Made by a program: the position numbers and the translations under genes | Notes under the pieces: generated by a model | The model's input: only the letters and a program-made list of their open reading frames with translations | The model's database searches: none | Told to the model about the DNA's origin: nothing | In this document: positions 6,636 to 28,161 of the stretch, in pieces | Position numbering within the stretch: the first letter of the stretch is position 1 | Layout of the letters: the number at the start of each line of letters is the position of its first letter | Origin: Tannerellaceae bacterium | GTDB lineage: Bacteria > Bacteroidota > Bacteroidia > Bacteroidales > Tannerellaceae | Reading direction: 5' to 3' | DNA: 34,770 nt | Assembly (NCBI GenBank): GCA_031267775.1 | Contig: JAIRYL010000088.1 | Span: 1-34,770, forward strand

Positions 6636-9600
6636 CTAATACACATTTATTTCGTCTACAAAGAACCAGGCAGGGTTTCCCACGCCATAATGCCAGGGCG
6701 GACAAAGGCCGATTGTTTCTATCTTTATCTTTATGTAACGCGCTTTCAGCTTCTTATCGGCCGAGACGGCTACCGGCACATATTTTACCTCCACGTCCCG
6801 GTCTTCGGCAACGTTTGTATGTCCCATCAGTTGATACGCGTCGTTATCTGCAGAAACCGAACAGGTTATGCTCTCCGGCAATAAAATCCACGACCCTAAT
6901 TTATGCAAAAAATCAGCCTCTACGCGCTGCACTTCTTTTGTTTCCTTCAAGTCTATTATAAATTCCGCATCTTTGCCTGCCCATCCTACCCAGCTTTCAT
7001 TAAAAGTAGCGCCGCCATATAATCCGTCGGTCAAGGCTTTGCCGGCAATCCTGTCATAGGGCGAATCCGCCGGCAAAAGATAAGTAACCGGACAGTCTCG
7101 AGCCAAACTTACGCGCGTATCGGATAAATTACGCCGGATGTATAACTCGGCATATTCTTTTACCGTATTTCTCCGTTCGTTCAGCGTTACTACATGATAT
7201 TCATCCGCGCGATCGTTGAACAGTTGCAGCAACTCGCTGAGTTCTGCTTTGTTTTTGACCGGTTCGGTACGGGCAATCTCCAACTCGGCATACATAACGG
7301 GCAGGCGAGCTTCGCGCACTCTGTTTAAGAAGGTTTGATTATGAGCAACCGCCTGTTCTGCCTTGTCAAACAATTCTTTATAACGCTTTATCATGATTTT
7401 GTTCAGCATTCCATCCTTATGCGTGACGGGGGTATCGTATATCCAAAGCGATTTTTCGCTTCCCATGAGCGCCCCTTCGCGCAATTTGATATATTGGTAC
7501 AGATAGAAAGCGGCCGGTTCTCCGTAGTATTCCTGGAGGAAAGTCTGCATGATGGAATCTACGCCGGCGGATGTATTCCACATAAGCTTGGCGACAAGAT
7601 AGGCGCGCAGTTCTGAAAAATCGCCGCCCTTTACGCTGTTTATCTGCGAAAAGTGCATCGTAGCCTTGTTCCGCAGGAACAACTGCATGTTTGGCTGCAA
7701 GACATGCAGGTTAGGGAAAGGCGAAATGTAGTTGTCAAAGTTAATGCCATAGTCCCATACAAAAATATTATCCGAGATAGCCGCCCATCCTTCCATATCC
7801 TTCACAAATTTTTGTCCCGAAGCATTTTCCGTCAGAGGAACTTCGCGGTGACAATCAATATCGCAAAGCATGATATTGACGTTTGGCAAGGGTTTGGTAT
7901 GGCGGGGCGGAGGTACGGAATACAGGTAAGCCAGGGTAGAAAATTCTTTGTCGGGAAAACGTTCGGCCAATTTATTGACAAAGCGAATGATTGTTCCCGA
8001 CGGACTACCTTCGTATTCGTCAATCGCTTGACATGCGTCGCAAAAGCAATGCGTCTGGCTATCGTTCTGGCTTACGGAAATCATCCGTCTGTCCGGATGG
8101 GCTTTGAACAGGGAGTCTATCCGCGAAGCAACAATTTCAAACACTTGGGGATTTGCGAGACACCACTGGCTGGCGTCGCCCGGCCGTCGACGCCCGTTGA
8201 TATACGCATAATATTCGGGATGAGATTCTCCGTATTGCGAAGCGGGAAGCAAGCGGTTGAAGGTGTGTACCCACAGATTCTGGACAAAGACTTCGCCGGG
8301 AGATTCCAGGCGATGCCACAGTTTGTAGACAGGGTCTCGCTGGCTGCCGACGGCAACCTGGCGGTAACGAAACGCAGGATTGTCGACGCGCTTTATGCCG
8401 GCCGGCACGCACATATCCTTATTTTTGTGAATGGTATATACGTTTTCGGCCAAACAATGGACGCCGAAATAATCGTCCAGCAGGGCGACTACCCCATATA
8501 TGCTCCCCCTTCCCGTCGCTCCCTGAATAATACGGAGATAATCGGTTGTTATCAGGGCAAAACCATCCTCTTTGATATCTCCGGCCTCGAGGTCTTTTAC
8601 GGGGAGCTGAAAACGTCCGATCAAGACGTCGCCTTTCCTTCTGTCGCTCTCTGCCGGAAGAATTTCCAATTCAGCGCCGGTTATCCGCCGGACAAAATCT
8701 TGCAGTAATTCTGCAGTTTTTACATCCATCGTATCCGATCGGTCTATTAAAATACGCGAAAGCGCTTTTCCATTTTTTACCAGTTCAATTTGCGCCTGCG
8801 CAGGAGCGCCGGATACCGGCTGTTTCACATTAAAAATTCCTTTTAAACGGATATCCTTCGACGAGCTGCCCAGCATAACCCTGAAGTCTCCCGGTTCTAC
8901 CATCCGCTCCATGTTTACGTCGAGGCAAGAGAGGTCTTCCGGCGTAAGTTGGAACTGGACTTCTTTTGTTTCTCCGGGATTGAGAGAAATACGTTTAAAA
9001 CCCTTCAGTTCGTTGATAGGGCGGCTGAGGGTAGACGCCAGCAAATCATGAAGGTATAGCTGCACGACTTCGTCTCCAGCTACCTTTCCCGTATTGGTTA
9101 CTTTGCAGGAAACCCGGATATTTTCGTCGGGCGAGATAACAGGCGAGGAGAATACCAAATCCGAATAAGCAAACTGCGCGTAACTCAGTCCATGTCCAAA
9201 AGGGAACAGCGGTTCGCCGCTTAAATCCAGGTATTCGTCGCCCCGTCCGGTTGGTTTATGATTGTAGTTCAAGGGCAACTGTCCCTCTTGCCGGGGGAAA
9301 GTGAGCGGCAGTTTACCGCCCGGATTACAAGCGCCAAACAATACGCCGGCTACGGCCAAACCACCCACATCGCCCGGATACCATACATCCAGGACAGAAG
9401 GAATGCGTTCTATCCAGGCGTCCATCGTTATGGCGCTCCCACCCACCAGGACAACCACTGTGGGCACGCCGGTTTGAGCGACGCGATTGATAAGTTCTTC
9501 CTGCCTTCCGGGTAATGAAAGAAAAGCGCGGTCGCGAAATTCCGCTTCCTCAATACCGGCTACGACGATGGCTACGTCGCTGCTCCGGGCCGTTTCTACG

Positions 9601-11483
9601 GCTCGACGCATCGTATCGTCTTCGCTTTCCACGCCCACATTCCACAGCAAGCGAACACGCCCGTTGCGGCAGTTTTCGTAAAACTCCAAACGGATATCAT
9701 ACAGTTTGTCTTTTTCAAATGCAAAGGGAACGGTTTGTTGCGTATAAGTTGTTTTTGTCGGGCGCTCTACTATTTTTTTATTATCGATATAAAGCGCATA
9801 TCCATCGTTACCCTCTACGCCAATTTCAAAAGTTCCCGAGGCAGGCGCTTTCAACTGTCCGGTCCACCTGACCGAATACCAGTCGAAAGCAAACAGTTTC
9901 GGACTGGGCGAGTTTAGCGTCCACTGCATGCGCATATTCCTGTCGTACCTGGTCATCAGAGGTTCGCCCTCCCACCGGATATTATTAAAATATTCGCCTT
10001 TCAGTCCCTTTTCCCCACCGGCAGAGAGGCAAGAATCAGGAATTGTAACATATAAAGGCGCGTTTCTCCTGCAACCTTCGGCATAAAGCACGCGCGTTTC
10101 ATTGCCGGCTTCTTTTTCGATTCCTTTCAAGATGCTGATCCGTTCGACGCCCGGCCCGCTGTACCCCCCCAGCCGAGCTTGCGCCGCATCCTGTCCGAGC
10201 ACGGCAATTTGCTTCAGATTCCGGGACAGAGGCAGCGCGTTTCCTTCATTTTTAAGGAGAACGATAGACTTCTGCGCCGCTTGGAGGTTTAGCTCGCGAT
10301 GAGCCGGAGAAGCGCTCAGGCGGGAAGCCTCTCCAGGTTCTACGTATGGATTTTCGAACAATCCCAGCCGGAACTTTTCGCGCAATACGCGGCGGACGGC
10401 AGCGTCCAGGTTTTCGGGCGCCACAAGCCCTTTCCGGCACGCCTCCAGATAAGGCTTGTGCATATCGTAAGTAGCCTGAAATATCACATGCAGACCGTTG
10501 TTGAGCGCCGCGGCGCCCGCTTCTTCAAAATCAGCTACGGTATGATGAAGGTAATACATGATATCTACGGCGTTGGCGTCGGAAACGGCTACGCCATCAA
10601 ATCCCCATTCGTCGATCAACTTATCTTTCAGCAAAAAAGAACTGGCCGAACAGGGTACGCCGTCGAAGGTGTTGTAGGCCGTCATGACGGCATGCGATTT
10701 TCCTCTGGTAAAGCAAGCTTTAAAAGGCACGTAATACGTTTCTTCCATGAAACGATTGGAGAAATGCGCCGGATGACTGTCTCGCCCGCCGTCTCCATGG
10801 TTGACGACAAAATGCTTGGGCGTGGTAATTACGCCCATCTGTTCAAAACTGCTCACAAAAGCGACGCCCATGCAAGCCGAAAGATACGGGTCTTCGCCAT
10901 AGGTTTCTTCTACGCGCCCCCATCGCGGATCGGTAGCCAGGTTTACTACGGGAGAGAGAATCTGGCGGATACCCCTTGATTTACATTCGCTTGAAATGGC
11001 AGACGCCACCTGGCGCATCAGCGTAGTGTCGAAGGTTGCGGCCAGGGCGATGGCCTGCGGGAAAATGGTAGAGCCTCTGCGGATTAACCCATGCAAAGCC
11101 TCGTCGAACGGAATGATGGGGATACCCAGCCGGGTTTCTTCCACAAAAAACTTTTGAATATCATTTATATGTTCAGCGGTAGCCTGCGCGGTAAGTCCCG
11201 GTTCGTAATTAAGTATTTGCCGCTCCACGCCGGCGTCGTTACTGTACGTATGCACCTGAAGTCCGAATATACCCTGTTTCAGTTTATCCCGGCCGATGAT
11301 GTTCAGGTCGCCCGGCGTCATGTATACCTGCCAGAATTTTTCTTCGAGCGTCATTCGCGACAGCAGGTCGTCCACCCGCGTCTCTATCGGCAATCCGGGA
11401 TTTTTGTAAGGTAATCCGGTATTATCCCGTGCGGCTGCAAGCGTGCATAAAAAGCAGGCGAGCGCTATTAATTTTGTCTTCAT
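6636..11483 (-). CDS. Multidomain secreted protein: GH3 (with PA14 insert and Fn3-like tail) fused to DUF4838 region and C-terminal F5/8-type (discoidin-like) domain
   Basis: 1615 aa, one signal peptide. GH3 motifs TPKHFVVNHGDGGRDSH, GFDGVAVSDANAV, AGIEEAEFRDRAFLSLPGRQEELI; PA14 GLKGEYFNN...GNDGYALYIDNKKIV; DUF4838 part aligns by eye along its length with the 16513-18789 product. Confidence 0.9.
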   Translation of the reverse strand: MKTKLIALACFLCTLAAARDNTGLPYKNPGLPIETRVDDLLSRMTLEEKFWQVYMTPGDLNIIGRDKLKQGIFGLQVHTYSNDAGVERQILNYEPGLTAQATAEHINDIQKFFVEETRLGIPIIPFDEALHGLIRRGSTIFPQAIALAATFDTTLMRQVASAISSECKSRGIRQILSPVVNLATDPRWGRVEETYGEDPYLSACMGVAFVSSFEQMGVITTPKHFVVNHGDGGRDSHPAHFSNRFMEETYYVPFKACFTRGKSHAVMTAYNTFDGVPCSASSFLLKDKLIDEWGFDGVAVSDANAVDIMYYLHHTVADFEEAGAAALNNGLHVIFQATYDMHKPYLEACRKGLVAPENLDAAVRRVLREKFRLGLFENPYVEPGEASRLSASPAHRELNLQAAQKSIVLLKNEGNALPLSRNLKQIAVLGQDAAQARLGGYSGPGVERISILKGIEKEAGNETRVLYAEGCRRNAPLYVTIPDSCLSAGGEKGLKGEYFNNIRWEGEPLMTRYDRNMRMQWTLNSPSPKLFAFDWYSVRWTGQLKAPASGTFEIGVEGNDGYALYIDNKKIVERPTKTTYTQQTVPFAFEKDKLYDIRLEFYENCRNGRVRLLWNVGVESEDDTMRRAVETARSSDVAIVVAGIEEAEFRDRAFLSLPGRQEELINRVAQTGVPTVVVLVGGSAITMDAWIERIPSVLDVWYPGDVGGLAVAGVLFGACNPGGKLPLTFPRQEGQLPLNYNHKPTGRGDEYLDLSGEPLFPFGHGLSYAQFAYSDLVFSSPVISPDENIRVSCKVTNTGKVAGDEVVQLYLHDLLASTLSRPINELKGFKRISLNPGETKEVQFQLTPEDLSCLDVNMERMVEPGDFRVMLGSSSKDIRLKGIFNVKQPVSGAPAQAQIELVKNGKALSRILIDRSDTMDVKTAELLQDFVRRITGAELEILPAESDRRKGDVLIGRFQLPVKDLEAGDIKEDGFALITTDYLRIIQGATGRGSIYGVVALLDDYFGVHCLAENVYTIHKNKDMCVPAGIKRVDNPAFRYRQVAVGSQRDPVYKLWHRLESPGEVFVQNLWVHTFNRLLPASQYGESHPEYYAYINGRRRPGDASQWCLANPQVFEIVASRIDSLFKAHPDRRMISVSQNDSQTHCFCDACQAIDEYEGSPSGTIIRFVNKLAERFPDKEFSTLAYLYSVPPPRHTKPLPNVNIMLCDIDCHREVPLTENASGQKFVKDMEGWAAISDNIFVWDYGINFDNYISPFPNLHVLQPNMQLFLRNKATMHFSQINSVKGGDFSELRAYLVAKLMWNTSAGVDSIMQTFLQEYYGEPAAFYLYQYIKLREGALMGSEKSLWIYDTPVTHKDGMLNKIMIKRYKELFDKAEQAVAHNQTFLNRVREARLPVMYAELEIARTEPVKNKAELSELLQLFNDRADEYHVVTLNERRNTVKEYAELYIRRNLSDTRVSLARDCPVTYLLPADSPYDRIAGKALTDGLYGGATFNESWVGWAGKDAEFIIDLKETKEVQRVEADFLHKLGSWILLPESITCSVSADNDAYQLMGHTNVAEDRDVEVKYVPVAVSADKKLKARYIKIKIETIGLCPPWHYGVGNPAWFFVDEINVY

Positions 11484-11578: not shown

Positions 11579-11910
11579 GTCGCGTCGGGGATTCCCGATC
11601 CTCTCCCCCAAACTTCCCGCCGACTTTCGGGGTTTCCGAACTTCGCCCCCAAACTTCCCGCAGGCTTTCGGGAATCCCCGAACTCCTCCCCAAACTTCCC
11701 GCAGGCTTTCGGGAATCCCCGAACTTCTCCCCCAAACTTCCCGCAGGCTTTCGGAATCCCCGAACTTCTCCCCGAAACTTCCGGCAGGTTTTCGGGAATC
11801 CCCGAACTTCTCCCCGAAACTTTCGGCAGGCTGCCGGAGTTCCCGAACTTCCCGCCCAAACTTCCGGCGTCCCGTCGGGGATTCCCGAACTTCTCCCCCA
11901 AACTTCCGGG
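11579..11910. repeat. Tandem array of 8 units of 41-42 bp (consensus aggctttcgggaatccccgaacttctcccccaaacttcccgc)
   Basis: Units at 11579, 11621, 11662, 11703, 11745, 11786, 11828, 11869 (to 11910); inner units carry the inverted repeat TTCGG(G)-N-(C)CCGAA. Confidence 0.93.
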
Positions 11911-11950: not shown

Positions 11951-13774
11951 CTATTTTTTCTTTGTTTGCCTGTCTTCCCAGCCGCTTTTGCCGTTATCCA
12001 TAAATACTTCCTGCAAGGATTTGGAAACGCGGTCGTCTACCTCTTCCACCAGATGAATCCGCAGCGGTTGCATGAGTTGTTTTCTCCAGGAAAGAACCGG
12101 GCCGAAGGGATTGGATTCCGTATCGATATGATAGATCATGAAAGCCCATTTCTCGGAAAAGATATTTCCTTTCGGCACGGGAACTACCTGCTGCATGTTG
12201 GCCGACAGGAATGGATGGGCCAAGGCGCGCGCCCAGTAAACCCAGGGACCTGTGGTAACATAAAAGTAAGGATTGAGCGTTCGGGGAGCCGATTCTATGC
12301 CGCTGTTGTCGTACCCCAACTGTATGCCGGCAAAAGCAATCCCGTTTGGGCGGTTGAAAAGCACAATCCATGGAACGTCGGCCTCCATCTTCAAGTCGGT
12401 TAGATCGGGCACGCTATTTACATCGTAAACGATAATGGTATCGCGCAAGGCGTCGTACCAGGCGGCATGCGTGATAAGTTCGCGTTTGAAAACCATTTCC
12501 GCATTCCGGAGCGCCAGCGCCTGCACCGTTTCATTAATCCGCATGCAGGTGGAACTGATAAAATAAGGCACGCCCGGATAAAATTCATACCTTACGGAAA
12601 CGTCTACCTGAGGCACGCCGCGGAGGTTATCCCAAAATTCCGTTTTGGCGACGACAGGCCCCGTCAGGATATGCATGCCCTTAGGCGCCTTCCAGTCGGC
12701 CGAGTGCGTCCAGGCCGAAGGCGGCACATAAATATCGGGATTCCAGTGCACCGCGCCGTTTGTTTCCATGCGGTGGAAAAGAGGTACATCCGGCCGGCTT
12801 TTCAGCGCCAACTGATCCAGATGCCCCGACCCGTTGTGCAGGGATACGGAATAGAGGCTGTTTGATATCTGAAGTCCCGGCGCGTCTCCCTGTACCTGCA
12901 GATCCGAATAGCAAGGCTCGACAAGGGCCTTCGGATTGTTATAATAAATCAGAAACACGCGGCTTGTTTTTGCCGGCACGCTGGCCAGAAACGAAACCCG
13001 CGCCGTAACGGTGGGCAACCAGAGCGGCACGCTGCGCGTGGGATTTCCGTTTTTGTCCGGCCCCATATCGTCTTCCTTCAGGTATTCCTGCACGTCGTAC
13101 ACCTGAGAAAGCGTCTCTTTAACCTCGTGCGTTTCGGGGTCTACCGATACCACGCGCACGTCGCGGGCTATGGATTCGGCTTCGTCGGGATAAAAAGCGA
13201 GCAAGACTTCCACGGGTTCGTTTTGGCGGTCGATCCCCGCCGTTTCGCTCAGCACGACAGATTTGTAATTCTTCCAGTCGGAGTTGAAAGTAGCGGCCTG
13301 GGCGGGCGCTTTCACTTTCCAGCTACCGCTTATAATTACGTCGTTGCGGGTAGCCTGCACCTCTTTTTTCATGCGTACGGCTACGCGGACGTCATATTCC
13401 TGTCCGGGTTGCCACTTCACCCAGCCTACTACCGTAAAATTCGTATAGCTTGCGCCATCCTGCGACAGTCCGTAGCCCGAAGAAGAACGTTCGGTTTGGG
13501 GAGGATGATTCCTGTCTGCCCTTCCCCTGCGGATATCTACCGCCCGGAGGACTTTTCCGTCTACCGTAACTTCTACCTCCATCATGGAAGATTGGGGCAG
13601 TTCTATATCTGCCTTGAAATGATAGTACGGAATTTCGGGATATGGAAATCCGAGTTCAATTCCCGACGCCTGCAAGGCGCTCGTTTCTTTCAGCTTTTGC
13701 GCTCCGATAACCAGCGAAGAGGCTATTATAAACAAAAGCGTTAGTCCTGTTTTAGATAAAATGTCAAGTTTCAT
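11951..13774 (-). CDS. Secreted protein of unknown function, probable beta-sandwich-rich glycan-active protein
   Basis: 607 aa, signal peptide; ISNSLYSVSLHNGSGHLDQLALKSRPDVPLFH and PYFISSTCMRINE resemble supersandwich/mutarotase-like segments by eye only. Confidence 0.8.
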   Translation of the reverse strand: MKLDILSKTGLTLLFIIASSLVIGAQKLKETSALQASGIELGFPYPEIPYYHFKADIELPQSSMMEVEVTVDGKVLRAVDIRRGRADRNHPPQTERSSSGYGLSQDGASYTNFTVVGWVKWQPGQEYDVRVAVRMKKEVQATRNDVIISGSWKVKAPAQAATFNSDWKNYKSVVLSETAGIDRQNEPVEVLLAFYPDEAESIARDVRVVSVDPETHEVKETLSQVYDVQEYLKEDDMGPDKNGNPTRSVPLWLPTVTARVSFLASVPAKTSRVFLIYYNNPKALVEPCYSDLQVQGDAPGLQISNSLYSVSLHNGSGHLDQLALKSRPDVPLFHRMETNGAVHWNPDIYVPPSAWTHSADWKAPKGMHILTGPVVAKTEFWDNLRGVPQVDVSVRYEFYPGVPYFISSTCMRINETVQALALRNAEMVFKRELITHAAWYDALRDTIIVYDVNSVPDLTDLKMEADVPWIVLFNRPNGIAFAGIQLGYDNSGIESAPRTLNPYFYVTTGPWVYWARALAHPFLSANMQQVVPVPKGNIFSEKWAFMIYHIDTESNPFGPVLSWRKQLMQPLRIHLVEEVDDRVSKSLQEVFMDNGKSGWEDRQTKKK

Positions 13775-13779
13775 ATCAA

Positions 13780-16500
13780 TTAGCGTGTAGATATTAAATT
13801 ACGATTTCGGAGTTCGTCTACTCCCTTCTGCCAGTGACCGCCCATCCCCCACATATAGTAAGAAAAATACATGGTACTTTTTTGATAAACGGGCGTCCAC
13901 GGCTGCAATTCGGCATAGTAATAATGCGCGTCCCTGTTTCGCGGATGATTCATCCACAGGTGCAGAAACAAAGGTTCGGTCACAGGGAAAGCGCCTGTAA
14001 AAGAAACGTCTTCCTCCGTATCATACCCTGCATTCCATCCCTCTTTCAGATACAAAACCCGGCCGTAGGTACGTTCCGGCTCCATCACAAATTGCCGGAT
14101 ACCGTCTTTTTCGGGTACGATAAAAACATCCTCCGTCCAATGCCTTTTCCCCAGTTCAAGTATCGGTTGCGGCCCGATTACATTCGCCTCCGGATTTTTA
14201 AACGTAAGCGCAAACCTCACTTCCAGCAGCGGCGAATTTCCATACAGCGTAAATATTTTCTCGATTTTATTGCCAAAATAATCCGCCGTCATCTTCAACT
14301 GCACATAATCGCCTTTGCTTTTAACCATTTCCGCCTGATAGATTTGATGCGTCTCCAGGCTGGCCTGCCCCAGGAAATCTTCAAATCCGCCAAAGGGATA
14401 ATACCCCCGCTTTCTGTAGGCGCGTTTATCGTCGCCGGCTTTTTCGGGCCACAGCTTAAACAGCACGTTATCGTTTCTCGACCTGACGATATACTCTATC
14501 ACGCGCGCGCCTGTTGCCAGCAAGGTAATCTGCACGCTGTCGTTTTCCATCCGGTATTCGTTCACGCCGTCGGCGTTCAGGTCTACTTCAGACAAAACAG
14601 AAACGCCCCCGCCGGCCGTTCCCACGCCCAGCCGGCTGCTGTTTTCCAGGCCCAAAGCGGTTACTTTTACGGTATAATGACCCGGCGGAACGTGCAGGTT
14701 GAAAGATAAATCCTGGAAAGCGCCGGTTGACGCCGTACACAGGCTCGAACTTTTGTATACGGTTCTTGCGGGATTTTCCATACTCAAAACCTCTACGTTT
14801 ACGGGGAATGACGATCGATCCGAAAAATTATGCACCGTAACCGGGTAAACAACCTCCGGCGCATGTCCGTACAACAACTGGTGAACGGAAATAAAACGCG
14901 GCAAACGAAGCGCCGTAACCGTACTTTTCCGCCGATCGCCCCAACTGAAATGCAAGGCAACCGGATTGACCTTCCCCATGGCCGAAGCAAGCGGGCGCAG
15001 ACTGAACTGCATCTTTTTCACGCCATGAGCGTCCAGATGCACCGGCAGCGACGCCTCTTCCATCATTTCCAGCTCCGGAGGAAGCGTCAGTTCCAGCTTG
15101 CCGTCGACCGCCTGCGGATACGTATTGGTTAAAACCACCTGGAGCGTATACCCTTCTACAAACGCATTTATCCTGATCCGGCCGGCAAAGTATTCTTCGG
15201 GAAAAACGCGGTCGAGCAGCAACAGCCCCATGGCCTGCCTGTACCGGTCGGGGCCCATCATTTTCCCGCCGTCCAGTACAGCCACTTCGCGCCGGTTCAT
15301 AATAGCGTCCCACAGATTCTTTTTTGTCAAAGGCTCATGCTTTTTGACAAAAAGAACCATCGCCGGTATGGCGTCGTCGTGCAGGTCGAGCGTAGGGCAG
15401 ACAAAAGGGACGTCTTCGTTATCAAGCTGCTCCTTATTACCGTCGAATCCTGCCGGCGACGGAAGCGTCCTCGCGGCGTCGTACGCTATATATCCGTCGT
15501 ACGGAAGATGCTCTACCAGCGCCGGCGTATCCGCCACCTGCCTGAACGCATACCCTCCCCGCTCGTGCGCGTACGCTATCCATTCCTCCCTGGAATAATT
15601 GCCCTGCACCTGCAAACCGTCGTAATTCCCGCACCCATAAACGGGCGGCGTTCCCACATCGGCTACCACCGGAAGGTTAACCTGCCCAACCCATCCGTCT
15701 ATTTCTTTCTGCGCCAGAAAGTCCATATACCCGTCAAAAACAAACCAGTCGTTCCCTTCGTCCATCCCTTTGCCCATCACGTCCAGGTAGTGGCCGGGCG
15801 TGCAGGTAACGCTTTTTTCCAGCGTTTTAGCGCCAAACCAGCCTTTATGAAGATCGTACTCCGCCAGTATTTCTTTGGTGGTATCGATCAGCCCGACTAA
15901 CTTGTTGCGACTATCTCGATGGGCCGACGCAATCACAAAAAGCTTCCGGTTGTCCCTTTCCAGCGTAAAGGCGCTTATTTCTACCAAACCTTCCGCCCCG
16001 TACTGATGGCTTTTCAGCGCCTCCCTGGCCGTTGCATGAAGGGTGGGAATATCCCTTGTAAGCCTCCGGCCCGTTTCCGAATTGGGATCGACGGTTATCA
16101 ACAGATCGCTCTTGGCCAGCGCCTCTTCCACCTGCCGCAGAGAAGGTTCTTCCAGCAACCGGCAGCCGGCGTCCAGCCAGTCGCTAAAAAAACCCTCCTG
16201 CAAGGATAATCCCGGAAGCCCCAAATCTTCGGCCACGTCTACCTTGCTCTGCATAATGCTGCGCGCTATATCCGGAACGGCTATCTTGTAAAGATTCCCG
16301 TAATAAATCCACTGCCGGTAAAGGTCGTGCCAGTAATTGGTATAGCCGTTAAACTGAAAGTCGGCGCGGACTATGTTTTCCTCAACGCCGGCGTCGCCTC
16401 TGTATAAAAAGCCATCCGCCGTTTGAGCGGCTACCAAAGCGTTTATACAAAGAAAAACCGGCATTATACATGCCACTTTAATTCTTGAACATATCGTCAT
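13780..16500 (-). CDS. Large secreted protein of unknown function, C-terminal beta-sandwich-like region
   Basis: 906 aa, signal peptide; DLNADGVNEYRMENDSVQITLLATGARVIEYIVRSRNDNVLFKLWP recalls C-terminal sandwich domains of glycosidases; N-terminal half unassigned. Confidence 0.8.
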   Translation of the reverse strand: MTICSRIKVACIMPVFLCINALVAAQTADGFLYRGDAGVEENIVRADFQFNGYTNYWHDLYRQWIYYGNLYKIAVPDIARSIMQSKVDVAEDLGLPGLSLQEGFFSDWLDAGCRLLEEPSLRQVEEALAKSDLLITVDPNSETGRRLTRDIPTLHATAREALKSHQYGAEGLVEISAFTLERDNRKLFVIASAHRDSRNKLVGLIDTTKEILAEYDLHKGWFGAKTLEKSVTCTPGHYLDVMGKGMDEGNDWFVFDGYMDFLAQKEIDGWVGQVNLPVVADVGTPPVYGCGNYDGLQVQGNYSREEWIAYAHERGGYAFRQVADTPALVEHLPYDGYIAYDAARTLPSPAGFDGNKEQLDNEDVPFVCPTLDLHDDAIPAMVLFVKKHEPLTKKNLWDAIMNRREVAVLDGGKMMGPDRYRQAMGLLLLDRVFPEEYFAGRIRINAFVEGYTLQVVLTNTYPQAVDGKLELTLPPELEMMEEASLPVHLDAHGVKKMQFSLRPLASAMGKVNPVALHFSWGDRRKSTVTALRLPRFISVHQLLYGHAPEVVYPVTVHNFSDRSSFPVNVEVLSMENPARTVYKSSSLCTASTGAFQDLSFNLHVPPGHYTVKVTALGLENSSRLGVGTAGGGVSVLSEVDLNADGVNEYRMENDSVQITLLATGARVIEYIVRSRNDNVLFKLWPEKAGDDKRAYRKRGYYPFGGFEDFLGQASLETHQIYQAEMVKSKGDYVQLKMTADYFGNKIEKIFTLYGNSPLLEVRFALTFKNPEANVIGPQPILELGKRHWTEDVFIVPEKDGIRQFVMEPERTYGRVLYLKEGWNAGYDTEEDVSFTGAFPVTEPLFLHLWMNHPRNRDAHYYYAELQPWTPVYQKSTMYFSYYMWGMGGHWQKGVDELRNRNLISTR

Positions 16501-16512
16501 CTCCGCCCGGTT

Positions 16513-18789
16513 TTATTTTACTACAATTTCATCGCAAAACATCACGGCGGCGCCCCCTGCATTGACATGCCAAACCGGATTTTTCAATATACTCTCCGCA
16601 TGTACGTTAATATAGCGCGCGCGTCTGTCCGTATTCGCCTCAAAAGACTGCACATAAATAACCCTTGGCATGGAATCTACTTCGGGCTCCATCGGATCTA
16701 CCGGATTAACCACTTTTATTTCGTCCGAATAGGTTTTACCATCCGCCGAAAACGAATAGGTTACATAGCGCGGCAACGCCATGGTATACCAGGTATCTTT
16801 TGCGTCGAAGAAATCCATATTGAGGTACTTGACGGGTTTCACTTCGCCCAGGTCGAGAACAAAATCGATATGGCTGTTTTCGTAGGCAACCCAGTTGTCA
16901 AACCTTACGTCGCGCCAGTCTTCATACGACCCGAATATACCGTCTGTCAGCGATCCGGCGCCTTTATACCTCGCGCTCGGTTCAACCGCCGGTATAACCG
17001 TTTTATTCAGCGAAAGCGCCTCCCTGGTATCTTCTACCTTTTTAAATATCCGCTGATAAGAAGCCATATAGTCGTCGGGCGATATACTGCGTTCACGCAA
17101 GCGGTTCACGCCCTGTTTTTTTGCAACTTCGACAAACTGATTTAACAACGACACGATTTCGGGATTAAACGTAATCTTTTGATTGGCGTCGGACTGAAAC
17201 AAACTTCGCGGCGTATCAACTTCCGTCCGGCTGATTTGAATTTGCGCATAGCTAACGGGCAAACGGGCAATCCTTACACGTTGCAGACAGGCGGTATCCT
17301 GTTCAACCGCCTTTTCCGCCTGGTCGAACAGTTGATTATACCTGTCCATCAGTCGAGCCGACAGGTAACTTTCCCTTGCCGCTTCGGGACTGCCGAAAAT
17401 ATCCAGGCGAAATCCGCTTTCGAGCAAGGCTTCGCGCATAACGTCGATATACTGGCGGATAAACGGCCCCGCAGCGCCAAAATACCCCGTAACAAAATCG
17501 TCTATTATCGCATCAGCATCCGCCTTCGGATTCCAAAGAAGCTTGCTGATAAGATACGCCCTCAGTTCGGCCATCTCCCCTCCTGTCTGGCTGTTAGACT
17601 GCATAAAGAAGGAGTTAACCCGGTTATCGGTAAAGAAATCGAGGTTCGGCCCGATGGTATGCAGGTTTGGAAACGGACTGACCAAATTGCTGAATTGAAT
17701 ATTATAATCCCAAATCAAGATATCCTGCGCCAGTTTTCCCCAATTCCTCAAATCGCGCGAAAAGGCGGTATCCGTTTCAAAAACAGGCCTGTTGCGCTTG
17801 CTCTCAATGTTACAGAGCATAATATTTACATTCGGTTCGGGTATAATATGGTCGGGCGCAGTCCGTGTATACCAATAAGCCAGGGTAGAAATCATCTTGT
17901 CGGGAAAAGCCTTTGCCACCCGGTTGACAAAATAAATCATCGACCCGCTGCTCCTGCGGGCGTCTCCTCCGAACGTCTCGTTCAGCGCCAGGCATTTGTC
18001 GCATAAACAATACTTATCGTTATCATTTTGGCTCACCGACCAATATTTTAATTCCGGCTTTTGCGCTATCTCCTTTTCAAGGTTTTCGATACATATCCTA
18101 AGCACGTCCGGATTCGACAAACACAACTGGGTGGGCATACGCTGTCCGTTCCTGAGGGAATAATACTCCGGATGCGTACCCATGTATTCGCTGGGAGGAA
18201 CCAGCCTGTCGAACGTATGAACAAACAACCCCCACTCGCTTCGCGACGACAGCTTATGCCACTCGGCATACTCCCTGTCGCGCGTATCGCTGTAAGACGT
18301 CGTGCGATAAACGATGGAAGGAATAAACTCCGTATCAGGGGGTAAGGATACCGCCTTCTTGTGAGGAACAAGCATGGCGGCAGAGGTATATTTTCTGAAA
18401 CCGAATGTTTCCAGCAAGTCATAAACCCCGTAAAGCGTCCCTTTCTTTTCACCCCCGGCTATAACAAAATTGTTTCCAACCGATTTATAAATATATCCGT
18501 CGTCTTTTAATGGAGCCAGTTTCAGATCAAGCGCCTTGGCATACGCCGTTTGTCCAAGATAGATTGCGTTCTTCCCTGTATATTTTGCTTCTTCAACAAT
18601 CGGAAGTTTCGTTCCGGACATTTCAAACAAATAACGCTGAAGCTGCTGCGAAGCTCTTGTTTCAATCGTATCGGCGTTGGAGGGAATAACAATCTGATAG
18701 TTGGCCGCGCCGTTTATTTTCAATCCCGGATTACACCCGCATAACGACAGGACAAACAGGATACATACATAATAAGTTAGCTGTTTCAT
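16513..18789 (-). CDS. DUF4838-family lipoprotein with C-terminal discoidin-like domain
   Basis: 758 aa; lipobox SLCGC; HPEYYSLRNGQRMPTQLCLSNPDV, YWSVSQNDNDKYCLCDKCLALNETFGGDARRSSGSMIYFVNRVA. Confidence 0.85.
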   Translation of the reverse strand: MKQLTYYVCILFVLSLCGCNPGLKINGAANYQIVIPSNADTIETRASQQLQRYLFEMSGTKLPIVEEAKYTGKNAIYLGQTAYAKALDLKLAPLKDDGYIYKSVGNNFVIAGGEKKGTLYGVYDLLETFGFRKYTSAAMLVPHKKAVSLPPDTEFIPSIVYRTTSYSDTRDREYAEWHKLSSRSEWGLFVHTFDRLVPPSEYMGTHPEYYSLRNGQRMPTQLCLSNPDVLRICIENLEKEIAQKPELKYWSVSQNDNDKYCLCDKCLALNETFGGDARRSSGSMIYFVNRVAKAFPDKMISTLAYWYTRTAPDHIIPEPNVNIMLCNIESKRNRPVFETDTAFSRDLRNWGKLAQDILIWDYNIQFSNLVSPFPNLHTIGPNLDFFTDNRVNSFFMQSNSQTGGEMAELRAYLISKLLWNPKADADAIIDDFVTGYFGAAGPFIRQYIDVMREALLESGFRLDIFGSPEAARESYLSARLMDRYNQLFDQAEKAVEQDTACLQRVRIARLPVSYAQIQISRTEVDTPRSLFQSDANQKITFNPEIVSLLNQFVEVAKKQGVNRLRERSISPDDYMASYQRIFKKVEDTREALSLNKTVIPAVEPSARYKGAGSLTDGIFGSYEDWRDVRFDNWVAYENSHIDFVLDLGEVKPVKYLNMDFFDAKDTWYTMALPRYVTYSFSADGKTYSDEIKVVNPVDPMEPEVDSMPRVIYVQSFEANTDRRARYINVHAESILKNPVWHVNAGGAAVMFCDEIVVK

Positions 18790-18807: not shown

Positions 18808-20127
18808 TTATTTTTGTAATATCAGTTTGGCAACTTTGATGGAAGAAGCGTTCTCCGGCGGAGGCGTACCCGTCCGGGGTAGTAACGAAGTAAGAAAAAG
18901 ATCGTTTTTCCCCACATACGGGCCATTCGTATTTACGTTTGAAATCTCTCCCATCCTTATTTCCGTTCCGTCGGCAAGTAACGTGGCGCTTTTCACCCGC
19001 CCGTTCATCCCTCTCAGGCAAACCTGCCCGATGTTGAAATTCGTAACATGGGCATATACCACGTCGCCCTTTTGCGTATACCATCCCCATTCGGGTTTCT
19101 CTAATCCAGCCGGGCCGCAGCCGTATATAGCCTCCTGGTTTGCATCCATCCATTCGCCTACTTCTTCCAGTATTTCGACCGATTTTTCGGGAATCTTACC
19201 CTTCGCGTCCGGGCCTACGTTGAGCAGTAAATTTCCGTTTTTACTGACGCAATTGATAAGCGTGTAAATCAAGTTGCGAGCCGTTTTATAATTAAAATCA
19301 TTTTTGTTATACCCCCACGAATTATTCAGCGTCAAACATAATTCCCATGGTACGGGACGTTCCGAACCGTCTTTTATAACGGCCGGAGGCGTAATTTGCT
19401 CAGGCCCGCCAAAATCTCCCGCGTATATTTCGGGCGCATCCGCCATCATATTTCCGCCAAGTCTATTATCTATAATCACGTGAGGCTGGTGTTTCTTCAC
19501 CATTTCAACCAGCTTGGTAGCTTTCCATTTTTCCCCCCGGTATTCGCCGTAAGAGTAATCAAACCATAAAATATCAATTTTACCATAATTCGTCACCAAT
19601 TCTTCTACCTGTTTATGCATGTAGTCGATATACTCGTCGAATTTTTCGTCCTTTCTTTCAAAATTGGGCTGATACCAGTCTAATAACGAATAATAAAATC
19701 CAATCCGTAAGCCTTCAGCCCGGAATGCATCTACAAATTCCCGGATCAAGTCGCGGCGTGCAGGCGTTTGGATTGCTTTATAATCGGTATATTTGCTGTC
19801 AAACAAACAAAAACCATCGTGGTGCTTAGCGGTAATTACAGCATACTTCATCCCGGCCTTTTTGGCAAGTTTCGCCCATTCTGCGGGATTGTAATCAACC
19901 GGGTTAAAGGCATCGAAATATTGCCGGTAGTTTTCGGTCGATATATTCTCGCGGTTTTTCACCCATTCGCCCCGTGCAGGAACGGCATAAATACCCCAGT
20001 GGATAAACATGCCAAACCGGGCTTCGCGAAACCATTCCGTCCGTTCTTGACGGGCTTCGTACGCAGACTGCCCGAATATTGCGGACAACGATAAAATAGA
20101 AAACAATAGAATAAATACGTATTTCAT
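18808..20127 (-). CDS. Alpha-L-fucosidase, GH29
   Basis: 439 aa; RFGMFIHWGIYAVPARGEW, YAVITAKHHDGFCLFDSKYTDY, KIDILWFDYSYG; signal peptide. Confidence 0.92.
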   Translation of the reverse strand: MKYVFILLFSILSLSAIFGQSAYEARQERTEWFREARFGMFIHWGIYAVPARGEWVKNRENISTENYRQYFDAFNPVDYNPAEWAKLAKKAGMKYAVITAKHHDGFCLFDSKYTDYKAIQTPARRDLIREFVDAFRAEGLRIGFYYSLLDWYQPNFERKDEKFDEYIDYMHKQVEELVTNYGKIDILWFDYSYGEYRGEKWKATKLVEMVKKHQPHVIIDNRLGGNMMADAPEIYAGDFGGPEQITPPAVIKDGSERPVPWELCLTLNNSWGYNKNDFNYKTARNLIYTLINCVSKNGNLLLNVGPDAKGKIPEKSVEILEEVGEWMDANQEAIYGCGPAGLEKPEWGWYTQKGDVVYAHVTNFNIGQVCLRGMNGRVKSATLLADGTEIRMGEISNVNTNGPYVGKNDLFLTSLLPRTGTPPPENASSIKVAKLILQK

Positions 20128-20209: not shown

Positions 20210-20938
20210 TCACAAAGATATAACCACCAATGGAGCGTAATTATACCGTATCGTACCTACGTCCGATACGCTTGCCAAAGCGCCAATCCGGAAATAATAA
20301 TTTTTCTTGTATTTAAAAAATTCGTTGGTATTACTTGGAATATCGATGCTTAACGTATACGTCGTATTGGCGTCAATCGTTTCGGCGGGGCTGAACGTTT
20401 TATAACACGAAGGATCCGAAATATTATACTTCACCTGTTCGCCCACATACATATCCGAAAAAGCGAACAGACGAACAGCTCCAAGCTTTACTTCAGGTTT
20501 TCCCGCCTGAAGCTTAAACGTAGCCACCACTTGATCGCCCTGTCTTGTAATCGACACATCCCTCGCCCGAATGTACGGGACAACCTCAAAATCATACGTA
20601 TTACTTCCTTTCTTAATATCGAGGTCTTCAATCGTAAACGGATAGAAATTACAGTCCATAAATACCACTTTATAATGAGCCGCAAAAACCATATCGTTCT
20701 GAAATTCTCCATTCTGTTTCACCACCCACGTTTGAACGCCTTCGGGCCAACCTAATTCGTAAACGCGAATAGCCGATCCGTTTTGAATATCCGTTTCAAC
20801 CAAAGCTCCTGTTTCGGCGTCTTTTATTCCACCTTTTAAAGAAGCGTTCGGAGCATCGTAATTGTCTATTTTAAACATGTCGCATCCCGATAAGAATAAA
20901 AGAGACGTTAATAGAAAAAATATGCTATGTACTTTCAT
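20210..20938 (-). CDS. DUF3823 domain-containing lipoprotein
   Basis: 242 aa; lipobox FLSGC, CDMFKIDNYDAPNASLKGGIKDAETGALVETDIQNG; directly downstream of susD. Confidence 0.85.
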   Translation of the reverse strand: MKVHSIFFLLTSLLFLSGCDMFKIDNYDAPNASLKGGIKDAETGALVETDIQNGSAIRVYELGWPEGVQTWVVKQNGEFQNDMVFAAHYKVVFMDCNFYPFTIEDLDIKKGSNTYDFEVVPYIRARDVSITRQGDQVVATFKLQAGKPEVKLGAVRLFAFSDMYVGEQVKYNISDPSCYKTFSPAETIDANTTYTLSIDIPSNTNEFFKYKKNYYFRIGALASVSDVGTIRYNYAPLVVISL

Positions 20939-20957: not shown

Positions 20958-22973
20958 TTAATGTCCCGGATTTTGCGTCAAACGATTGGTTTCCGTACTT
21001 GGAATAGCCTTATAGTAGTTTATCGGATTGAATTGCCGCCCGCCCGCTTGTTCGTCATGAAACTGATTGACGCGAACAAAAATGTATTTGGGCGTTCCTT
21101 CGCGAAGATCAACCAAAGGAACCAGCGCATGTCGCCTGCCTACGTTGAAAAAGGTGTGGTATTCGCGCCGGCGAAGCATATCGTCGTATCTCCTGCCTTC
21201 AAAAGCCAATTCTACCCTTCGCTCTTTCATAACGGTTTGAACCGTTAGCGGAATCTCGTCGGTATGGCCGGCTCTTTTCCGTAATTGATTTATATAGCTT
21301 CCGGCCAGCGTAGCGTCGCCCTGTCCGCTTTCTACGGCCGCTTCGGCATAATTCAGGTAGATTTCGGCCAGGCGGAAATCAATCCACGTTGTAGTAGACA
21401 CGGCCGTACTTCCGGTAACTACCACATTTTTATTCTCGGCCAGGTATTTCCGGATAGAAAATCCGGTACAGGAAAAATTCGAGTTTTCCATCCCTCCGCC
21501 TAAATTATCGAAGCCCGAATAACCGGCCGGACTGGCGGCGCCATAGGTGTAATACATTTTTCCGTCAAGCCCTTCTTCACTGCCGACGGCGTAAGCCACA
21601 ACATCTCCGTTTTTGCGGACAAGGCCGCCCTGCATAATAATTTTCACATCTTTATACATCGCTCCCGGAACGATTACGCTGCTAAGCAGACGCACGTCCT
21701 TCCCGGCAAAGGGTTCGTACAGATCATCGTATTTTTTGAACGGAACCGTCAGTTGGATATTATTCGGATTTGCATAGTAAAAATCCTCGTTGCCATCCTC
21801 GCGGGTTATTATTTTTGCGCTGGCGCCGCTTCCGTTATCGGTATAATCTTCGTATACGTCGACGATATCCAGGGTCACGCTGAAACGTCCGTGACGGAGA
21901 AATCCGGGATGGTTTTGCGCCGGGCTATAGAAGGCGTCGTAACTATGTCCCTGATTACTGACAAGCGATCCGTCTAAAAAAGCTTTTCCGAAAATAATTT
22001 CATTATTGGCCGTTAAAAACAAGTTTTGATAATTGGCCGCCGCCTCTTCCCTGTTTGCCGGATTGGGCATATACAAGGTATATCCCGAATTATCAATAAT
22101 CGCCTTGCAAGCGTTGATACATTCCAAATAATACCGATTTGCTTCGGAAGAAGAAACGCCCACATATCCTAACGTGGCAGCTTCGCCGATTAAGGGAGCG
22201 CTGTTCCAGAATTTTGCAACCGAAGCGGCATACAAAGCAACCCTCGATTTCAAGGCGTATGCAGCCCATTTACCGGCGCGATATTTACCATCTGCAAGCG
22301 TTTCCGGAAGACTGGCTATTGCTTTGTCGCAATCGCCCAAAATAAAATCCCACGTATCCTTTTCCGTACTGCGGGGAATATACAAAGCCGCGCTCTCCGT
22401 GCCCGGCGTATAATCGTTGTCCAGCGGCTTTTCCAGGATGGGAACGCCTCCGTAGCTTTTTGTCAGGCCAAAGTAAAGGTAAGCCCGTATAAAATAAGCT
22501 TCGCCTTGCAAGCGAGTAAATGTAGCTTCGGTAAGAACCTGCTCGTCTCGGGCTTTTTCAATACCTGTCAGAAACAAATTCAAGTCGCGAAGGCGCGCGT
22601 AAGCATATTCAAAATAATTGTTATCCGGCTGTCCTATGGGGTCGCTTCCGTCCGAGCGAATGGCGTCGCCGGTATACATATCGGTCGTAGCAAAATGAGC
22701 GCCCTGCCCTATACCGCGAATATAAAAGCCGCCATATCCCTGTGCATCGGTAGCAGTGCCAACGCCCGGATGATAATTGAAATCTTCCACAGGCATGGCA
22801 TTATATAATTCCGCCAAAAGCGTAAGTATACCTTTTTCGCTGGTTAACAGTTGATCTCCGCTTACTTTCGTTAACGGCTCCACTTCGAGGTATTGCGTAC
22901 ATCCTGCATGCAACGTCAACAAAAAAGCCGTAAAAACGATCCATGCTTTACTTTTCAATATATTCTTTTTCAT
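20958..22973 (-). CDS. SusD/RagB-family nutrient-binding lipoprotein
   Basis: 671 aa; HAGCTQYLEVEPLTKVSGDQLLTSEKGI..., RLQGEAYFIRAYLYFGLTKSYGGVPI, VMKERRVELAFEGRRYDDMLRR. Confidence 0.95.
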   Translation of the reverse strand: MKKNILKSKAWIVFTAFLLTLHAGCTQYLEVEPLTKVSGDQLLTSEKGILTLLAELYNAMPVEDFNYHPGVGTATDAQGYGGFYIRGIGQGAHFATTDMYTGDAIRSDGSDPIGQPDNNYFEYAYARLRDLNLFLTGIEKARDEQVLTEATFTRLQGEAYFIRAYLYFGLTKSYGGVPILEKPLDNDYTPGTESAALYIPRSTEKDTWDFILGDCDKAIASLPETLADGKYRAGKWAAYALKSRVALYAASVAKFWNSAPLIGEAATLGYVGVSSSEANRYYLECINACKAIIDNSGYTLYMPNPANREEAAANYQNLFLTANNEIIFGKAFLDGSLVSNQGHSYDAFYSPAQNHPGFLRHGRFSVTLDIVDVYEDYTDNGSGASAKIITREDGNEDFYYANPNNIQLTVPFKKYDDLYEPFAGKDVRLLSSVIVPGAMYKDVKIIMQGGLVRKNGDVVAYAVGSEEGLDGKMYYTYGAASPAGYSGFDNLGGGMENSNFSCTGFSIRKYLAENKNVVVTGSTAVSTTTWIDFRLAEIYLNYAEAAVESGQGDATLAGSYINQLRKRAGHTDEIPLTVQTVMKERRVELAFEGRRYDDMLRRREYHTFFNVGRRHALVPLVDLREGTPKYIFVRVNQFHDEQAGGRQFNPINYYKAIPSTETNRLTQNPGH

Positions 22974-22984
22974 ACTTTTTGCTG

Positions 22985-25900
22985 TTAAAAGTTAATACTT
23001 AACCCGAAATTCACGGCTTTCATAATCGGATACGTCAAATTCGCATTATAATCCTTTTCCTGTTTTTCAGGGTCGATTTTTTTCAATTCTTTATTCGTGA
23101 TTGTAAAAATATTAGTGGTTTTCACAAAGAGCTTTACATCCGATATATTCCATTTTTTAAGGATGGAAGAAGGCAGGGAATAACCAAGCTCAATATTCTT
23201 CAAACGCAGATAGTTACCCATCGGACGGAACAAACTGATCACGTTATCGCTTGTAACCCCCGGCCGCGGATTTACCCAGGGACGCAAGGGAGCGAATTTA
23301 CCGGGAATCCAGGCAGTAGCCGGATCGTAAGGATCGGCTTCTATGCTGTTTGTATGCCAGCGATCATAGTATTTTTCGTGCAAAGTAGGATATCGTCCGT
23401 AACCCCAAATATCATTCGAGGCAAAATTGACGGAATATAACGCAGCTCCCTGGAAAAGCAAATTCAAACTGAATGATTTATACGTACCCATAAAGGTAAG
23501 ACCATACTGCAAAGGCGGATTAACGGCCCCCGTGCTATTGCTTGTGCCGGAAGTGTATCCTTCGTCGCCAAATGTCCAATTGTCGAAAACCCTGTCGTTA
23601 TTATTAATCACGCCGTCTCCATTTGTGTCTATAATACGAAATTCGCCCGGCAACATTTTTGAATTTCCCAATGTCCCTCCATGCAAAGGTCCCGTTTCAA
23701 ATTGTTCCAACGACGTATATTGCCCGTCGTAGTTAAAAATCAAGGAACGTCCCGTGTAACGATCTTCGTTTCCGTTTTGCCATCTGTCCCACTGGCTTGT
23801 GAAGGCCGCTCTTTCCGTATGCAACCGTTTTTGACGCGCATACGTTGCATTCGCCGTTACACTATACGTAAAATCGTTTCCTATTTTTCCCTGATGCGTC
23901 AGATTCAGTTCCATTCCGACATTCATATCCGAGTTGATATTCTCCTGCGGAAATGAAGCGCCGAAGAAATTGGGCACCGTCGTGATACGGGTAGCTAAAA
24001 TACCTGTGTTTTTACGTTTGAACAGGTCAAAAGAACCTCCGAATTTTCCGCCCGGCAAATCGAAATCAATACCGATATTGGATATTCGGGTAGTTACCCA
24101 CGACAGCAAATTATTAACGACGCCAGGAGGATACATGCCCGTAGTTAACGTGCCTGCATCAAAAATATACCCCCTGGCCGCATTGCTTGTATATCCCGGT
24201 ATGTATTGAAAAGCGTCTCCCGCGTCGCGACCGCTTTCGCCATACGAAGCCCTAATCTTCAGGTTCTCCAGGAAAGGCAGCAGATTTTTCACAAATTTTT
24301 CTTCCGACAAACGCCATCCTATACTTGCCGAAGGGAAAAACACCCATCGTTTTTCCGGCGCATACCGGAACGAGCCGTCGTATCGCCCCACCAGTTCCAC
24401 TAAATATTTATTGGCATAATCATAATTCAAACGTCCGAAATAGGCGGCCAGCCGGCCAAATTCACGAAAGCCCAGGTTGGTTGCCGTAGTAGCGGTACCC
24501 TGGTTCAGGATGTCATGCGTATACAAGTCGCTATACAAGCGCTGCCCTCTCAGTCGATCCGCCCGCTCATTGGAACCTTCCATCGCGCCCATAACATTAA
24601 ATGAATGCGAACCGACGCGTTTATTGTAAGTAGCCATCAGGCGGAGATAGGCTTTTTCATAAAGGTCGATTTGGTTATAATAAGAATCTGTGCCGTAAGT
24701 GGCCTGGTAGAGATCGGAAAAATAGTCGTATAACTCGTAGCTTCTCGAAAGGTACGATTCGTTGATTTGACGGATGTTGTAATCCGTCAAGGCCGAAAGC
24801 GTCAAACCTTTTACAAAAGGAACCGTATACGTCAATTCAACTTGCGCTTGCCCGTTGAGCGTTTCCCAGCGGCGATACCCGTCTACATCCGGATCGATAA
24901 ACGCCATCAGGTTTTTGCCTTCGGGAGCTATTAGCGTATAATGTTCGTCATTATCCATCGTATGCCAGTTTTTACCGCGTTCGCTGGTCATAAGCGCTTT
25001 ATATACAGCCCAGAAATCATCCCGTTTACTTTGTCGCTTATCCTGGCGGCCCGAAAAGCCGATGTTCATCTTCAAATCTTTCGTCAGGGCGGCCGTTACA
25101 TTGGAACGGAAATTATAGCGTTTGTAATACATGATATCGCTGCTTAAAAGTCCTTCATCCGACGTAAATCCCGCACTGGCAAAATACTGCACCTTGTCGG
25201 TTCCTCCCCTGACAGACAGGTTATGATTTTGCTGGGACACGGAATTGTGCATGGTCAGGTCTATCCAGTCGATATCCTGATAGCCGGGTTGATTTGTCCT
25301 GTATTTTTCAAGAAGGTCAAAATCATACGCCGCATACATCCCTTTGCCGTCATTCCGTTGCATTTCATTGGCCATCTGCATATAATTATATGCGTCCATG
25401 GTCAGTTCCATACCGGTCGGCGTTTTCACGCCGTACAATCCCGTATAGGTGAACCGCGCTTTTCCCTGCGCAGTTCCTTTCTTTGTCGTTACGATAATAG
25501 CGCCGTTGGCGGCATTCATTCCATAAATGGCGGCGGAGGCGTCTTTCAGGATAGAGACGCTTTCAATATCTTCCGCGCTCAATTGCGCCAATTCTTTAAC
25601 AGCGTCGCCGGCTTCCCTGCCGCTACGCGTAACGCCGTCAATAATGATAAGCGGATTGCCATAACCGCGAATACTGATCATATTGTCAAACACGCCCGGT
25701 TCGCCGGTTTGCTGACGAATCAATAAGCCGGCTACTTTTCCCTGAATATTGGTGACAAAATTCTCCGTTTTGGTGGAAATGATTTCTTCGCCTTTTATAG
25801 CCGTAACGGCGCCAGACAGGGTTTCCTTTTTTTGTACCCCATAACCTACGACAACTACCTCTTCCAACATCTGACGGTCTTCCGCCAACCGGATAGTAAA

Positions 25901-26512
25901 TGCGCTCTGATTGCCTACGTTAATTTCCTGCGTTATATACCCTATATAACTAATCACTAACTGATTGTCGGACGAAACCTGGGTAATGGCAAATTTCCCT
26001 TCCGCATCGGTGATAGTGCCTTTGGCCGTTCCTTTAACGCCTACAGACGCTCCGATAAGCGGTTCGCCGGCTTCGTCAACCACCGTGCCGGTAACCGTTT
26101 TGGTTTGCTGCTGAAAAACAATATTGCTTTCGGAAGAAGACCTGTTTTTTGCCAGAGCAATGTATTTGTTCTGAAATTCATAACGAATATCCGTATCGGA
26201 AAAAACTTCGTTCAACATAGATACCAGATTTCCCGTTTTATTCTGAATACGTACAACGCGATTCATATCAACGTCTTCATTACGATACAGAATTAAGAAA
26301 TCGGTCTGACGCTCAATTTCCGTTATAAACTGTTTAATGGACAGTTCATTCGAATAAATCTCAATTTTAACATTCTGAGCGTCTGTATTAATAGCTGTTG
26401 CATGAAAAACAACGGCAAAAAGAAAGAGAAATGAAATTCTTGTGATTCTTGAAAAATTTTTAAAGTGTTCCTTTTTGAAGATAAAAGGAATCACAAATCG
26501 TTTTTTTTCCAT
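22985..26512 (-). CDS. SusC/RagA-family TonB-dependent transporter with N-terminal STN signalling domain
   Basis: 1175 aa; STN-like VKIEIYSNELSIKQFITEIERQTDFLILYRNEDVDMNRVVRI; carboxypeptidase-regulatory-like domain; VVVVGYGVQKKETLSGAV TonB/plug motifs. Confidence 0.95.
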   Translation of the reverse strand: MEKKRFVIPFIFKKEHFKNFSRITRISFLFLFAVVFHATAINTDAQNVKIEIYSNELSIKQFITEIERQTDFLILYRNEDVDMNRVVRIQNKTGNLVSMLNEVFSDTDIRYEFQNKYIALAKNRSSSESNIVFQQQTKTVTGTVVDEAGEPLIGASVGVKGTAKGTITDAEGKFAITQVSSDNQLVISYIGYITQEINVGNQSAFTIRLAEDRQMLEEVVVVGYGVQKKETLSGAVTAIKGEEIISTKTENFVTNIQGKVAGLLIRQQTGEPGVFDNMISIRGYGNPLIIIDGVTRSGREAGDAVKELAQLSAEDIESVSILKDASAAIYGMNAANGAIIVTTKKGTAQGKARFTYTGLYGVKTPTGMELTMDAYNYMQMANEMQRNDGKGMYAAYDFDLLEKYRTNQPGYQDIDWIDLTMHNSVSQQNHNLSVRGGTDKVQYFASAGFTSDEGLLSSDIMYYKRYNFRSNVTAALTKDLKMNIGFSGRQDKRQSKRDDFWAVYKALMTSERGKNWHTMDNDEHYTLIAPEGKNLMAFIDPDVDGYRRWETLNGQAQVELTYTVPFVKGLTLSALTDYNIRQINESYLSRSYELYDYFSDLYQATYGTDSYYNQIDLYEKAYLRLMATYNKRVGSHSFNVMGAMEGSNERADRLRGQRLYSDLYTHDILNQGTATTATNLGFREFGRLAAYFGRLNYDYANKYLVELVGRYDGSFRYAPEKRWVFFPSASIGWRLSEEKFVKNLLPFLENLKIRASYGESGRDAGDAFQYIPGYTSNAARGYIFDAGTLTTGMYPPGVVNNLLSWVTTRISNIGIDFDLPGGKFGGSFDLFKRKNTGILATRITTVPNFFGASFPQENINSDMNVGMELNLTHQGKIGNDFTYSVTANATYARQKRLHTERAAFTSQWDRWQNGNEDRYTGRSLIFNYDGQYTSLEQFETGPLHGGTLGNSKMLPGEFRIIDTNGDGVINNNDRVFDNWTFGDEGYTSGTSNSTGAVNPPLQYGLTFMGTYKSFSLNLLFQGAALYSVNFASNDIWGYGRYPTLHEKYYDRWHTNSIEADPYDPATAWIPGKFAPLRPWVNPRPGVTSDNVISLFRPMGNYLRLKNIELGYSLPSSILKKWNISDVKLFVKTTNIFTITNKELKKIDPEKQEKDYNANLTYPIMKAVNFGLSINF

Positions 26513-27851: not shown

Positions 27852-27964
27852 TTTTTCTGTGTTTATAATATGAAAACACATGGGGGAAAAAAATCCGCTA
27901 ACTAATTGTCGGGAAATTCTTCCAAGCGATGAAAAATAAACAGGATATACCCGTTTTCGTTCCT

Positions 27965-28161
27965 GAACGCCGCAGGCGTTCCATGTGGGTAACCCCCGGC
28001 GAGGCGAAGCTACCGGGTGCATGCGGAGCACGCCGCGCCGCCCCAACCTGTAAGGTTGAACTCCTCGGAGCGAGGAGAGAGGAGAGAGGGGGAGAGCGTC
28101 TCGCTACCCCCCGGTCGTTTCGCTTTACTGGGGGTTACTAACATTTGTCCCGTCAGGGACA
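27965..28161. repeat. Composite palindromic (REP/MITE-like) element
   Basis: GAACGCC-GCA-GGCGTTC (27965-27981); outer inverted repeat GTAACCCCC (27989-27997)/GGGGGTTAC (28130-28138); CAACCT-GTA-AGGTTG (28044-28058); CTCCTCG-GAG-CGAGGAG (28061-28077); TGTCCC-GTCA-GGGACA (28146-28161). Confidence 0.8.

Follow-up and report, generated by a model that had tools for sequence, protein, structure and literature searches.

The window analysed here is a 34,770-nucleotide stretch of Tannerellaceae bacterium contig JAIRYL010000088.1, and all of its genes and coding features described below lie on its minus strand. At 6636..11483 it carries an uninterrupted ORF of 1615 aa in which a GH3-PA14-Fn3 glycosidase is followed by a DUF4838 (GH163-like) module and an F5/8-like domain. 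A Pfam scan found the GH3, PA14 and DUF4838 domains that an earlier note on this DNA had placed together in one ORF. Inspection showed a single signal-peptide-like segment, located at the N-terminus, as the note had described. The GH3 half (residues 1–888; 8820..11483) consists of this segment, GH3 N (residues 90–368), GH3 C (residues 407–768) with PA14 (residues 491–615) inserted in it, and an Fn3-like domain (residues 805–875). Both GH3 domains (PF00933 and PF01915) exceed their curated cut-offs, with 191.8 vs 27 and 185.8 vs 31 bits, respectively.

The DUF4838/GH163-like half (residues 896–1615; 6639..8798), delimited by alignment to the two closest relatives, G013 and G016, opens with a GH20b/GH67N-like front, seen as a weak, sub-threshold GH20b match at residues 913–1002. 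The DUF4838 core (PF16126; residues 1012–1332; 7488..8450; E 1.8e-110) scores 369.6 bits against a gathering cut-off of 26.6 and covers model positions 3–324 of 325. The module was thus rightly called complete as far as the Pfam model goes, but its own signal peptide is gone. A helical part separates the core from the C-terminal F5/8-type/CBM32-like domain (approximately residues 1481–1591; 6711..7043). The Pfam F5/8 C match here (residues 1481–1590) is weak and sub-threshold; the earlier identification of an F5/8-like C-terminus gains support from a match to the end of 6q63, a solved Bacteroides beta-hexosaminidase (phmmer, E 3.6e-9), and from CBM32-like Foldseek matches of the structural model.

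The surrounding genes encode an ECF sigma factor (28491..29057; TIGR02985), a FecR-like anti-sigma factor (26880..28046), SusC (a TonB-dependent receptor with plug domain; 22985..26512), SusD (20958..22973), a DUF3823 protein (20210..20938), a GH29 alpha-L-fucosidase (18808..20127) and a second, standalone DUF4838 protein of 758 aa (16513..18789) that is approximately 36% identical to the fused one; from SusC to this protein the assignments are from Pfam. Two proteins of the same operon, of 906 aa (13780..16500) and 607 aa (11951..13774), have no Pfam or NCBIfam match and, among 61 relatives, occur in G013 and G016 only. The 906-aa protein, whose predicted structure is of low confidence (pLDDT 40.5), has a 47% identical paralogue in G016 (C136) beside an ORF that is GH16-like by eye (L149). 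Both are candidates for novel carbohydrate-active proteins. A 41-bp unit is repeated in tandem approximately 7.8 times in the intergenic region upstream of the fusion ORF (window positions 11585–11907), and this array is absent from the corresponding gap of G013; a 21-bp tandem repeat of 5.6 copies lies in the interval that separates the ECF sigma gene from the FecR-like one (28214–28331). Examining the operon as a complex N-glycan utilisation locus, Pfam searches over the window found no GH18 ENGase, GH92, GH130 or GH125, and GH20 was not found in the operon either.

G013 and G016 have the same operon, gene for gene, but in both the GH3 protein (892–896 aa) and the DUF4838 protein (742 aa and equipped with a signal peptide) are encoded by two distinct ORFs with 5 bp between them. 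Identity to these sisters is 84–85% for the GH3 half and 86–87% for the DUF4838 half. The alignment showed that the sisters' NVKQN, stop codon, gap, ATG, signal peptide and AQAQIE correspond in the fused ORF to NVKQ-PVSGAP-AQAQIE: approximately 83 bp, comprising the stop, the gap, the start and most of the signal peptide, give way to 26 bp, a net loss of 57 bp that keeps the frame. The resulting linker, P-V-S-G-A-P-A (residues 889–895), lies at 8799..8819, within tens of bases of the position near 8830 proposed earlier, and the start of the DUF4838 half is of low confidence and disordered in the AlphaFold model. Since the two halves are unfused in the nearest relatives, which are 84–87% identical and have the same operon, the fusion appears to be young and lineage-specific, joining operon neighbours. 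The earlier claim of a GH3-DUF4838 joining therefore stands as regards the single ORF, but what was joined is a pair of operon neighbours in one lineage, rather than an established architecture.

The GH3 half has the residues expected of a working enzyme. KHF is present at residues 223–225, and the half aligns over its full length, the PA14 insert apart, with 7zb3, a beta-xylosidase. The putative nucleophile D302 (VSDAN; codon 10578..10580) and acid/base E648 (AEFRDR; codon 9540..9542) align with Asp and Glu in 7zb3 and with Asn and Gln in 8c7f, a variant of 7zb3 with D to N and E to Q changes at the presumed nucleophile and acid/base. Both residues are conserved in all close GH3 orthologues, in line with the earlier view that this part looks catalytic. 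The nearest solved relative, 7zb3/8c7f, has the two-domain GH3 core, the Fn3-like tail and the Asp/Glu pair in common with the fused protein, whereas it lacks the PA14 insertion, and the C-terminal DUF4838 extension is a feature of the fused ORF. The specificity can only be predicted: the best-scoring references were beta-xylosidase models and 7zb3, but every NCBIfam specificity model scored below its cut-off (516 vs 1250 bits for Xyl3A beta-xylosidase). Our foremost guess is a beta-xylosidase-like activity. A NagZ-type hexosaminidase was rejected, as the NagZ-like model gave 42.6 bits against a cut-off of 207. By description alone, the GH3 half can be likened to B035DRAFT_00995, a Bacteroidales GH3 beta-1,2-xylosidase that acts on plant N-glycans alongside GH29 and GH2 enzymes (PMC9522356).

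Of the acids in the DUF4838 half, D1141 and D1244 show no variation across an alignment of 108 homologues and E1291 is present in 94%. Conserved acidic residues in a DUF4838-type sequence are in keeping with GH163, and these acids are candidate catalytic residues. The AlphaFold model is a confident multi-domain fold (mean pLDDT 89.8), the closest folds to which in Foldseek are GH20 (BT0459), GH84, GH115 and GH67 enzymes; no solved structure matched the DUF4838 core by sequence. dN/dS was 0.082–0.089 for both halves against each sister, compared with 0.084–0.086 between the sisters, these values being averages over a divergence most of which may predate the fusion. With the catalytic residues and conserved acids in place and a dN/dS of approximately 0.085 in both halves, we see no sign at the sequence level that either half is decaying, and the DUF4838 module, too, may be catalytic, as the note had suggested.

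The note's suggestion that some DUF4838 proteins belong to GH163 is borne out at the level of family and synteny: a DUF4838 protein carries a GH163 annotation (PMC9870897), and orthologues occur in complex N-glycan loci. BT_1035 of Bacteroides thetaiotaomicron, a protein of the ‘coagulation factor 5/8 type’, is entered as GH163 (PMC12834350). Judged by annotation and locus synteny, it shares with the fused half the DUF4838 core, the GH20b/GH67N-like front and the C-terminal F5/8-like domain; the link is synteny-level orthology in locus L106, and orthologues occupy SusC-SusD-GH18-DUF4838-MFS-GH130-GH92 loci. The B. thetaiotaomicron GH163, which is described as a separate enzyme, is reported to cut GlcNAc-beta-1,2-Man and free LacNAc antennae (PMC10154615), whereas the fused copy trails GH3 and has no signal peptide of its own. 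Hence the connection to complex N-glycans stands, but the description as an endo-acting enzyme has to be amended from a core chitobiose ENGase, which we rejected on this ground, to one that would release antennae. The alpha-glucuronidase reading suggested by the GH67N-like front was also set aside: the likeness to GH115/GH67 folds is real, but the gene context favours GH163.

The DUF4838 orthologues of the fused half formed a set of 82 loci with at least 53% identity, and the comparison of related loci drew on the best 80 of 227. Leaving aside one GH20 fusion and a small number of copies that are truncated or split, the orthologues are standalone proteins of 730–750 aa. The same group contains the copies at GH18-BT1044-like loci: at 14 of the 82, the neighbourhood of the DUF4838 gene includes a BT1044-like GH18 together with a BT3987-N/LamG protein, and several of these also have GH92, GH130, GH125 or a sialidase-like protein. 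Frequent partners are GH20 (adjacent in nine) and GH3 (adjacent in six). Gene groupings of GH3 with DUF4838, or of GH3, GH20 and DUF4838, are found both in Tannerellaceae and on plasmids of Parabacteroides, and on Parabacteroides distasonis plasmids the orthologous GH3-DUF4838-GH20 trio adjoins SusC/SusD. In these plasmid trios and in the GH3-GH20-DUF4838 trios of Tannerellaceae MAGs, the GH3 is 59–76% identical to that of the fusion and the DUF4838 orthologue is adjacent or near and co-directional; they differ in being separate genes accompanied by GH20.

Several other observations were made at these loci. A Prevotella MAG has a GH92-GH29-F5/8 fusion of 1353 aa (L133:883-4944) that adjoins genes for DUF4838 and GH3. 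DUF4838 orthologues are split by frameshifts or stops in Bacteroides xylanisolvens XB1A (L106:9950-12133) and in G024 (C115/C124), possibly as pseudogenes or through sequence errors. One P. distasonis plasmid (L141:3740-6419) has the trio's GH3 broken into two annotated genes; another (L142) has it intact. A contig labelled Spirochaetaceae (L063) has a DUF4838 gene 73% identical to a Bacteroidales one, reflecting either mis-binning or transfer.

The possibility that the architecture is common in databases was addressed with samples of 393 genomes of the order, 396 of the phylum and 19 of the genus. No second GH3-DUF4838 fusion was found among the 82 orthologous loci or about 850 sampled genomes, showing that the fusion is rare in the samples searched. 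Other long DUF4838 ORFs (G458, G294, G516) contained no GH3; their partners were CBM9/HYR/sorting tail and amidohydrolase, and the DUF4838 hit of G516 disappeared on rescanning. The nearest parallel is the GH20-DUF4838 fusion of 1432 aa in MAG contig JAISGW010000064 (G023:C29; L026:1-4296; L070), open at the contig end. Here, too, an orthologous DUF4838 (66%) stands behind an exo-glycosidase with stop and signal peptide lost, which shows that the module can be fused; the partner there is GH20, the contig is cut at its end, and the event is an independent one. The parts of the protein are known, and their combination is a new architecture, present nowhere else in the loci and genomes sampled.

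Could the fusion be an assembly or consensus error, the genome truly having two adjacent genes and the contig having lost a short stretch or had it replaced? The fusion is seen in one contig of one MAG (66.6% complete, 232 contigs), and all near relatives have two separate genes. However, the clean swap of 83 bp for 26 bp keeps both frames and leaves a joint without start or signal, which a one-base slip is unable to yield; the sequence on either side is unique and runs collinear with that of the sisters, and its own genome contains the junction sequence once. We consider such an error improbable. Still less credence can be given to a long-established bifunctional family that has merely been under-sampled: the GH3/GH20/DUF4838 module trio is old and recurrent, but the orthologues are standalone at nearly all loci examined and the sisters are unfused.

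A real fusion acting on something other than N-glycans has to be taken more seriously, although we regard it as rather unlikely. The substrate would then be a polysaccharide from plants or fungi, or else a glycan of host or microbial origin with fucose and beta-linked HexNAc, and the DUF4838 specificity would be different. The operon, with GH29, two DUF4838 proteins and two proteins without matches, has none of the N-glycan core enzymes; the DUF4838 fold is also similar to those of GH115/GH67 alpha-glucuronidases; and the paralogue of the 906-aa protein lies next to the GH16-like ORF. Against this, the copies in GH18-BT1044-like loci fall into one orthologue group with the fused DUF4838, and the genes that usually accompany it encode GH20 and GH3. 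Taken together, the GH163 annotations, the GH18-type orthologous loci and the GH20/GH3 partners link the DUF4838 half with the breakdown of N-glycans. Since the fusion operon itself lacks the core enzymes, we infer an N-glycan substrate for the fused protein by carrying it over from the orthologues.

The reading we prefer, with a probability of about 60%, is that the ORF is a genuine, recent fusion of two operon neighbours into a GH3-GH163-like protein that would act in the periplasm as a two-step glycoprotein-glycan enzyme. Its ancestor would have had the GH3-PA14 exo-glycosidase and GH163-type (DUF4838) genes adjacent in one SusC/SusD polysaccharide-utilisation operon, from which the small in-frame deletion or replacement seen in the alignment took the GH3 stop, the intergenic bases and the DUF4838 start and signal peptide. 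The protein would be exported once, via the GH3 signal peptide, and both modules would remain in their original compartment. Judging from family, orthology and synteny, the GH163-like module may free beta-linked GlcNAc-containing antennae from N-glycan-type chains; the GH3 module might take off a neighbouring terminal sugar, perhaps most likely beta-xylose or a beta-glucose-like one. Tethering would set a fixed enzyme ratio and may aid consecutive cuts on one glycan. It is possible, though doubtful, that a GH163 N-glycan enzyme was joined independently to GH3 here and to GH20 in the other MAG because the coupling of blocking-sugar removal to antenna release was the selected benefit.

The locus presents operon-neighbour enzymes caught soon after fusion, for which the unfused sisters, at approximately 85% identity, serve as controls. 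The link of DUF4838/GH163 to particular exo-enzyme partners, GH3 and GH20, narrows the guess at the substrate of an under-studied family. The fused protein is also a natural two-step construct for asking whether tethering helps the breakdown of glycoprotein glycans.
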